From Dehalococcoidia bacterium (GTDB taxonomy: Bacteria > Chloroflexota > Dehalococcoidia > Lucifugimonadales > Lucifugimonadaceae), in contig JAPKBN010000005.1 of assembly GCA_026421215.1 (NCBI GenBank), positions 1-64,000 on the forward strand: a stretch of 64,000 nt of DNA. Reading direction: 5' to 3'. The notes under the pieces are model-generated. The model made no database searches and was not told the DNA's origin. It saw only the letters and a list, made by a program, of their open reading frames with translations. Below are positions 48,276 to 50,300 of this stretch, one piece after another. A program made the position numbers and the translations under genes. How positions within the stretch are numbered: the first letter of the stretch is position 1; each line of letters begins with the position of its first letter.

Positions 48276-48327
48276 GAACTGAAGCGTGGTGCTACGTACC
48301 GATCAAAACATGGTCTGCGCGCCGCAT

Positions 48328-48608
48328 GGAGACGAGTAGTTCGGTCCCGGGAACTCGAGCGTGCCCGGTGTGGTGTGAGCAGGTAAGGTCCGGCCGAACA
48401 AACATCCCTCCGTAGCTTCTGCACGAACGGCGGACTGGCTGATTGGTCAGAGCCAAGTATACGTAGACGGGATAGTGGCCCGTTATCTATCACGGGGCCA
48501 TGTTTGTGCCTCTACCAAGCGGCTCGTCCGGCAATTACTAGGCGGGAATTAGGGTGGTACCGCGGGCCTGATTTTTAGCCTGTCCCTTTCTGGGGCGGGT
48601 ATTTTTAT
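48328..48608 (+). promoter_or_regulatory. T-box leader (tRNA-sensing riboswitch) upstream of citramalate synthase
   Basis: GACGAGTAGT start of stem I (48331), GGTGTGGTGTGAGCAGG stem I distal motif, GACGGG..CCCGTTATC stem, canonical T-box AGGGTGGTACCGCGGG (48551-48566), then terminator. Confidence 0.88.
48579..48606 (+). terminator. T-box-controlled intrinsic terminator
   Basis: CCTGTCCC-tttct-GGGGCGGG followed by TATTTTT. Confidence 0.8.
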
Positions 48609-48677: not shown

Positions 48678-50300
48678 ATGGCCGAACAGATACAGATATA
48701 CGACACCACTCTTCGGGATGGGACTCAGCAAGAAGGCATCTCGCTCTCGGTCGACGACAAGCTTGCGATCGCTGAACGCCTGGACTCGCTTGGCGTCCAC
48801 ATCATCGAAGGCGGTTTCGCGGGCTCCAACCCGAAAGACGACGAGTTTTTCCAACGCGCGCAAACCCTGGACCTCAAGAACGCCGTTATAGCCTCTTTCG
48901 GCAGTACCCGTCGGGCAGGCGGCAAGGTGCAGGATGATGGCGCTATCGTTGCGTTGCTACGTGCCGAGACGCCGATTGTGACCATCGTCGGCAAGGCGTC
49001 GGCGTGGCAGGTAACCAACATCCTCGGCACTTCCGTCGAAGAGAACCTGCACATGATCGCGGACTCCGTATCTCACCTCACCGCACAGGGACGTCGCGCC
49101 ATCTACGACGCGGAACACTTTTTCGACGGCTACAAGTTCGACGCTGATTACGCATTACAAACCCTCCGCGTGGCTGCTGAAGCGGGCGCAGAAACGGTAG
49201 TCCTTTGTGACACCAACGGCGGTACATTGCCCCATGAGGCAGTAAAGATCGTTACCGCCGCTTGTGAATTCGCCGCTGAAATGGGTGTCCGCATCGGCAT
49301 CCACGCCCACAACGACACCGATACAGCGGTGGCCGTCTCCATGGCCGCATGGCAGGCGGGAGCGACCCAGATTCAGGGCTGTATCAACGGATACGGTGAG
49401 CGAACTGGTAACGCCAACCTGACCAGCATCATCGCCAACATGAAGCTAAAGATGGGTATCGATGTGATCTCCGACGAGCAGCTCGCCACGCTCACAGACA
49501 CCTCACTGTTCATCGCCGAAACGCTGAACATGGCCCCACACGCCTTCCAGCCATACGTCGGAGCCAGTGCGTTTGCCCACAAGGGTGGCCTTCATGCGGC
49601 GGCCGTTAACAAGCAGCGACAGTCTTATGAACACGTAGACCCTGGCACCGTTGGAAACCTGAACGCGATAGTCGTTTCTGAGTTGTCCGGGCGCGGGAAT
49701 GTACTACGCCGCATACGTGACCTCGGCCTCGCGAAAGATCTAACCGACGGAGACATCCAAGAGATCGTCCATGAGTTAAAGCACCTTGAGAATCGCGGAT
49801 TCTCATACGAGGGTGCAAGCGCGTCTTTTGAGCTGTTGATCCGTCGACATTTGCCGAACTACGAGGCTCCGTTTGAGCTGATCGATTTCATGGTCCTTAT
49901 TGAGAACCGACGGACAGCACGCGTCTCAGAAGCCACTGGTTCCGGAGGCATCCTGTCTGAAGCGACGGTGAAGGTGCGGGTTGGCGAGGATATCCAACAC
50001 ACGGCGGCCGAGGGCAACGGTCCGGTCAACGCCCAGGACCACGCTATGCGCAAGGCACTGCTCCAGTCTTACCCGGATCTGGAATGTGTCCGTTTGACCG
50101 ACTACAAGGTGCGTGTCGTCGCCGACGGGACCGGCACCGGGGCCGTCGTCAGGGTCGTTATCGAATCGTCGGACGGACACGATACATGGAGCACCGTAGG
50201 TTCTTCTGAAAATATTCTTGAGGCGAGTTGGCTCGCGCTTGCGGACAGTATGGAGTACTGGCTCGTGTGCCGTCGGCCGAGCGTGCCCGGAGCTTCCTGA
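48678..50300 (+). CDS. cimA: (R)-citramalate synthase
   Basis: IYDTTLRDGTQQEGISLSVDDKLAIAERLDSLGVHIIEGGFAGSNPKDDEFF; HAHNDTDTAVAVSMAAWQAGATQIQGCINGYGERTGNANL; C-terminal LeuA_dimer-like domain. Confidence 0.9.
   Translation: MAEQIQIYDTTLRDGTQQEGISLSVDDKLAIAERLDSLGVHIIEGGFAGSNPKDDEFFQRAQTLDLKNAVIASFGSTRRAGGKVQDDGAIVALLRAETPIVTIVGKASAWQVTNILGTSVEENLHMIADSVSHLTAQGRRAIYDAEHFFDGYKFDADYALQTLRVAAEAGAETVVLCDTNGGTLPHEAVKIVTAACEFAAEMGVRIGIHAHNDTDTAVAVSMAAWQAGATQIQGCINGYGERTGNANLTSIIANMKLKMGIDVISDEQLATLTDTSLFIAETLNMAPHAFQPYVGASAFAHKGGLHAAAVNKQRQSYEHVDPGTVGNLNAIVVSELSGRGNVLRRIRDLGLAKDLTDGDIQEIVHELKHLENRGFSYEGASASFELLIRRHLPNYEAPFELIDFMVLIENRRTARVSEATGSGGILSEATVKVRVGEDIQHTAAEGNGPVNAQDHAMRKALLQSYPDLECVRLTDYKVRVVADGTGTGAVVRVVIESSDGHDTWSTVGSSENILEASWLALADSMEYWLVCRRPSVPGAS

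Follow-up and report, generated by a model that had tools for sequence, protein, structure and literature searches.

Which amino acid, if any, governs the citramalate synthase gene cimA in the window, the 64,000-nucleotide stretch of Dehalococcoidia DNA analysed here? The initial annotation proposed a full-length T-box at 48328-48608, with a T-box core, a terminator and an ATC (Ile) triplet at 48404-48406, directly upstream of cimA. All of these parts are found at those places; as for the span, the element is complete but its 5' end lies about 15 bases earlier, the RF00230 alignment running from 48313. We are highly confident that the window holds a complete, full-length, terminator-type (transcriptional) T-box specific for tRNA-Ile(GAU), predicted to control cimA. 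Its parts are the following.

48313-48606, + strand: whole T-box leader, from Stem I to the terminator U tract (RF00230 alignment, and terminator beyond the alignment)
48326-48413, + strand: Stem I, closed by AUGGAG (48326-48331) and CUCCGU (48408-48413) (Rfam alignment; covariation)
48335-48338, + strand: AGUA belonging to the S-turn (loop E) motif in the specifier loop (sequence; unchanged, as AGTA, across 29 leaders)
48339-48344, + strand: 5' arm of the Stem I helix above the specifier loop, GUUCGG, pairing with CCGAAC at 48394-48399 (covariation)
48363-48384, + strand: distal Stem I hairpin GCCCG...CAGGU with apical motif GGUGUGAG (conserved and covarying in 29 leaders)
48404-48406, + strand: specifier codon AUC, isoleucine (bulge position rule; invariant in 29 leaders; register of the ileS T-box)
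48551-48566, + strand: T-box core AGGGTGGTACCGCGGG, in RNA AGGGUGGUACCGCGGG (sequence; antiterminator fold)
48551-48587, + strand: antiterminator, helices AGGG/CCCU and GCGGG/CCUGU (fold; pairing over 28 distinct leaders)
48579-48606, + strand: intrinsic terminator CCUGUCCC-UUUCU-GGGGCGGG, then UAUUUUU (folding; covariation)
48678-50300, + strand: cimA, (R)-citramalate synthase, 540 aa (TIGR00977)

The covariance-model check suggested by the initial annotation gave a full-length alignment: in a lenient Rfam scan (601-base), RF00230 aligned to 48313-48590 over model positions 1-219 of 219, with 51.8 bits and an E-value of 1.9e-10, and a whole-genome RF00230 scan matched the element again (E 1.8e-10). 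The Rfam scan of the window at the gathering threshold returned no match, since 51.8 bits fall short of the curated cut-off of 93 bits. Among the other T-boxes of the same genome, the valS and ilvB leaders exceed 93 bits, and those of trpS and ileS stay below, like that of cimA. With two of four other T-boxes also under the cut-off, the low score is a trait of the lineage and not of the cimA element; the leader is GC-richer than the RF00230 family and diverged from it. From its end, about 70 nt lead to the cimA ATG at 48678. The promoter scan found no sigma-70-like promoter upstream of the leader. Over the terminator, a match to anti-hemB (16.5 bits, E 0.31) was dismissed as chance.

The 3' half of the leader offers two alternative folds. 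The antiterminator, AGGG-(UGGUACC)-GCGGG...CCUGUCCCU, folds as expected when this 3' part is taken in isolation; its bulge UGGUACC occupies 48555-48561, and the U of UGGU is the predicted partner of tRNA base 73. When the downstream arm is included, the full 3' end folds instead as a nine-pair terminator (-24.6 kcal/mol, z -2.5), encoded as CCTGTCCC-TTTCT-GGGGCGGG at 48579-48599 and followed by TATTTTT. The arm CCUGUCCC (48579-48586) is common to both structures, which are therefore mutually exclusive. As for the 5' half, the minimum-energy fold of the full Stem I alone is not the canonical one (z +0.8); the fold of the trimmed element recovers both helices flanking the specifier loop.

Comparison with relatives supports these structures. 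Across 29 aligned cimA leaders, 93.6% of the cells in 15 Stem I pairs are standard pairs, and the pairing falls to about 50% when the partner is shifted by one column. Cells with a double change number 54, against 18.0 +/- 4.1 in shuffles, and the covariation score is 0.397 against 0.177. In the helix above the specifier loop, five of the six pairs show changes on both sides. The terminator and antiterminator vary little in sequence across cimA leaders: 96.9% of terminator cells are paired, with compensatory change in two pairs, as are 96.8% of antiterminator cells (28 distinct leaders). In one genome (G085), AGGG/CCCU became AGAG/CUCU in step, and the terminator arm changed along with it. Between Stem I and the T-box sequence, the cimA leaders of G004, G067, G088 and G090 (L119, L163, L155, L180) carry palindrome-like or foreign-looking inserts (CCCTCTCC...GGAGAGGG and similar), which suggests that the central part of the T-box can accommodate insertions.

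A set of 100 related genomes supplied 68 cimA genes; we searched upstream of each for a T-box core within 550 nt, and found one in 42. Recurrence before the same gene in so many relatives argues that the window element is not a chance match. Of the 26 genes with no clear core, 23 belong to four genera with reduced genomes (mostly 0.7-1.5 Mb) and AT-rich cimA upstream regions. These genera (g5, g6, g7 and g9) lost their T-boxes before cimA and the synthetase genes; they retain at most one (for instance L006-L008 and L010-L012), always before ilvB where the downstream gene was identified. In the window's own genus the element is kept in six of seven relatives.

The specifier was the uncertain point of the initial annotation, which favoured ATC while noting overlapping triplets. 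By the rule of the T-box database TBDB (PMC7778990), the codon occupies positions 2-4 of the specifier bulge, numbered from its 3' end; on the 3' side of the specifier loop, AAAC-AUC-C (48400-48407), this is AUC. This triplet is identical in 29 of 29 aligned cimA leaders, the preceding base being C, A, U or G, and the competing CAA, ACA and CAU are not conserved. An automatic pattern finds AUC at the expected place in 35 of the 42 T-box-bearing cimA leaders; among the others, those readable by eye deviate solely in what follows the closing helix, and in the G090 leader an insertion at this place makes the specifier unreadable. Other T-boxes, which the initial annotation advised to inspect in the genome, are in register as well: at an equal distance from the closing helix, valS leaders have GUC, ilvB leaders CUC and trpS leaders UGG, in a control where the automatic pattern was readable in about half of the leaders. 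CUC stands in a few leaders assigned to valS, which are probably those of leuS.

Could the leader sense another tRNA, with CAU (His), ACA (Thr) or CAA (Gln) as its codon? In the leaders for Val, Leu and Trp, GAA stands immediately before the specifier, and the same reading would give CAU in the window. Transferred to the other cimA leaders, this register would however produce AAU, GAU, UAU and CAU, hence four different amino acids before a single gene, whereas AUC is the same in all. Counting from the 3' end of the bulge brings all T-box classes into agreement, and in this genome the ileS leader shares the GAAC-AUC layout and register of cimA. A shifted register is thus extremely unlikely, and the aligned leaders point to AUC (Ile) as the specifier; the non-branched-chain codon that might have emerged from the alignment did not. 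The isoleucine reading would still mislead if the enzyme were 2-isopropylmalate synthase and the element part of leucine synthesis: CimA and LeuA are homologous, and leuA models also match the protein. Their scores lie far below their own cut-offs, whereas TIGR00977 reaches 670.8 bits against a cut-off of 450 (NCBIfam), a surplus of 220 bits. A bona fide leuA stands in the ilv-leu operon on contig C96 (747 bits against 532), and the specifier is Ile rather than Leu. We consider the leucine assignment very improbable; from its family match, the window gene is predicted to be a citramalate synthase, as first proposed.

It might also be asked whether a recognisable structure has outlived its response to tRNA. 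The low score of 51.8 bits could be taken for decay, and such decay does occur nearby: in the congener G006, cimA is intact but the T-box core preceding it is visibly broken. Against this, the specifier, AGUA, distal loop, UGGUACC bulge, antiterminator helices and terminator are all intact in the window, and divergence elsewhere is compensatory within the genus and the family. We judge a decayed relic to be very unlikely and retain the isoleucine-specific T-box. In G006 itself (C229, upstream of 10628, L118) the core is degenerate (GGTGGC-CCACCGG) and Stem I damaged; terminator and cimA frame are intact despite the broken core.

The bulge UGGT had been taken to predict A73, fitting tRNA-Ile. 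This agrees with the tRNA-Ile(GAU) of three congeneric species (G001, G003, G004), which ends in A73-CCA. The draft genome of the window (92% complete) gave 40 tRNA matches, none with a GAU anticodon; the gene was probably lost from the draft assembly along with the rRNA operon. In most T-boxes the base following the specifier is a purine; here it is a C, likewise in most cimA leaders compared.

We infer tRNA binding, antitermination in vivo and a metabolic effect along the following lines. Transcription would start upstream of about 48313. With charged tRNA-Ile, the arm CCUGUCCC would pair with GGGGCGGG, and the resulting terminator would keep cimA from being transcribed. When isoleucine is scarce, uncharged tRNA-Ile would bind at two places, the AUC of Stem I through its GAU anticodon and the UGGU bulge through its A73-CCA end; these contacts would stabilise the antiterminator and let cimA be read. 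Isoleucine shortage is thus the condition that most likely opens cimA. On the way from pyruvate to isoleucine, the first dedicated intermediate is the product of citramalate synthase; the switch would therefore convert a shortage of the amino acid into flux into the citramalate route.

The draft genome (2.37 Mb, 127 contigs) contains five T-boxes: on C96, C54, C7, C121 and in the window, they precede ilvB, valS, trpS, ileS and cimA, respectively. Downstream genes were named by reading their translations, with ilvB and cimA also by NCBIfam. On C96 (L307, G000:C96:1-8956), a leucine-type (CUC) T-box stands before an ilvB-ilvN-ilvC-leuA-leuC operon, where ilvN is named by position and sequence, as its NCBIfam match fell short of the strict threshold. 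We predict from this that leucine shortage opens the shared ilvBNC-leuAC operon, isoleucine shortage cimA and ileS, valine shortage valS, and tryptophan shortage trpS. The genome also encodes two single-domain proteins resembling threonine/serine dehydratases, none above the cut-off with the catalytic domain alone scored; a threonine route to isoleucine may coexist, so that the citramalate route may not be the only one. Most of the named relatives retrieved with CimA belong to the Chloroflexi, a SAR202 cluster genome among them, which suggests a SAR202-type (marine) lineage.

Seven species of a sister genus (G016, G025, G034, G041, G046, G051 and G056; loci including L262, L264, L265 and L266) possess a rebuilt cimA T-box, more unusual than the element of the window. 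All seven leaders have AUC in the specifier region. In the six species where Stem I could be delimited, it measures 58-61 nt and is devoid of the distal loop. The terminator lies about 50 nt farther downstream and its 5' arm is duplicated, giving the strands A (CCCGUCC), B (GGACGYG), C (CCCGUCC) and D (GGACGGG) in this order, ahead of the U tract. Both D and B are complementary to A as well as to C; the B:C helix is extended, with one compensatory difference in the extension between G016 and G046. The remaining T-boxes in these genomes end in ordinary terminators. Tentatively, the sister-genus switch could be a relay, in which the tRNA, by capturing A, determines the hairpin that the distant terminator strand D enters, as opposed to the single choice between antiterminator and terminator in the window. 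The platform may also be a plain duplicated terminator.

Altogether, the leader in the window is a sound, conserved case of a well-known type of switch, whose target may be unreported so far: an open-access literature search, with the surveys Vitreschak 2008 and Gutierrez-Preciado 2009 outside its reach, returned no report of cimA under a T-box. No long-standing question hinges on it. Its interest lies in the predicted wiring of branched-chain supply in an uncultured marine lineage, where the isoleucine-only entry step would answer to tRNA-Ile and the shared ilv-leu enzymes to tRNA-Leu, and in the support it lends to the view that SAR202-type Chloroflexota make isoleucine by way of cimA.

The mechanism of T-box antitermination was worked out in Bacillus subtilis. 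With the transcriptional antitermination T-boxes of RF00230, the window element shares a Stem I with S-turn and distal loop, a specifier, a bulge, an antiterminator competing with a terminator, and a place before an amino-acid gene; it differs by its sub-cut-off score, its higher GC content and its target, cimA being unnamed in the T-box literature searched. The initial annotation had hinted that a T-box before a biosynthetic gene is unusual, which does not hold, such T-boxes being common (PMC2494555, PMC12452182). T-boxes precede leuA in Geobacter and Pelobacter and, in Dehalococcoides, ileS as well as trp genes (PMC2494555), and they occur in tandem on leuA or ilvB in Bacillota (PMC12452182). 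Like the window element, those of Geobacter, Pelobacter and Dehalococcoides lie outside Bacillota, and they include Chloroflexota and genes of the isopropylmalate/citramalate synthase family; their target of that family is however leuA instead of cimA, and PMC2494555 mentions no cimA target. In B. subtilis, the ilv-leu operon is under a Leu-specific T-box (PMC12452182), the same arrangement as before ilvBNC-leuAC in this genome. In contrast, the T-box of the window reads isoleucine and is predicted to gate the isoleucine-specific entry step only, apart from the shared operon.
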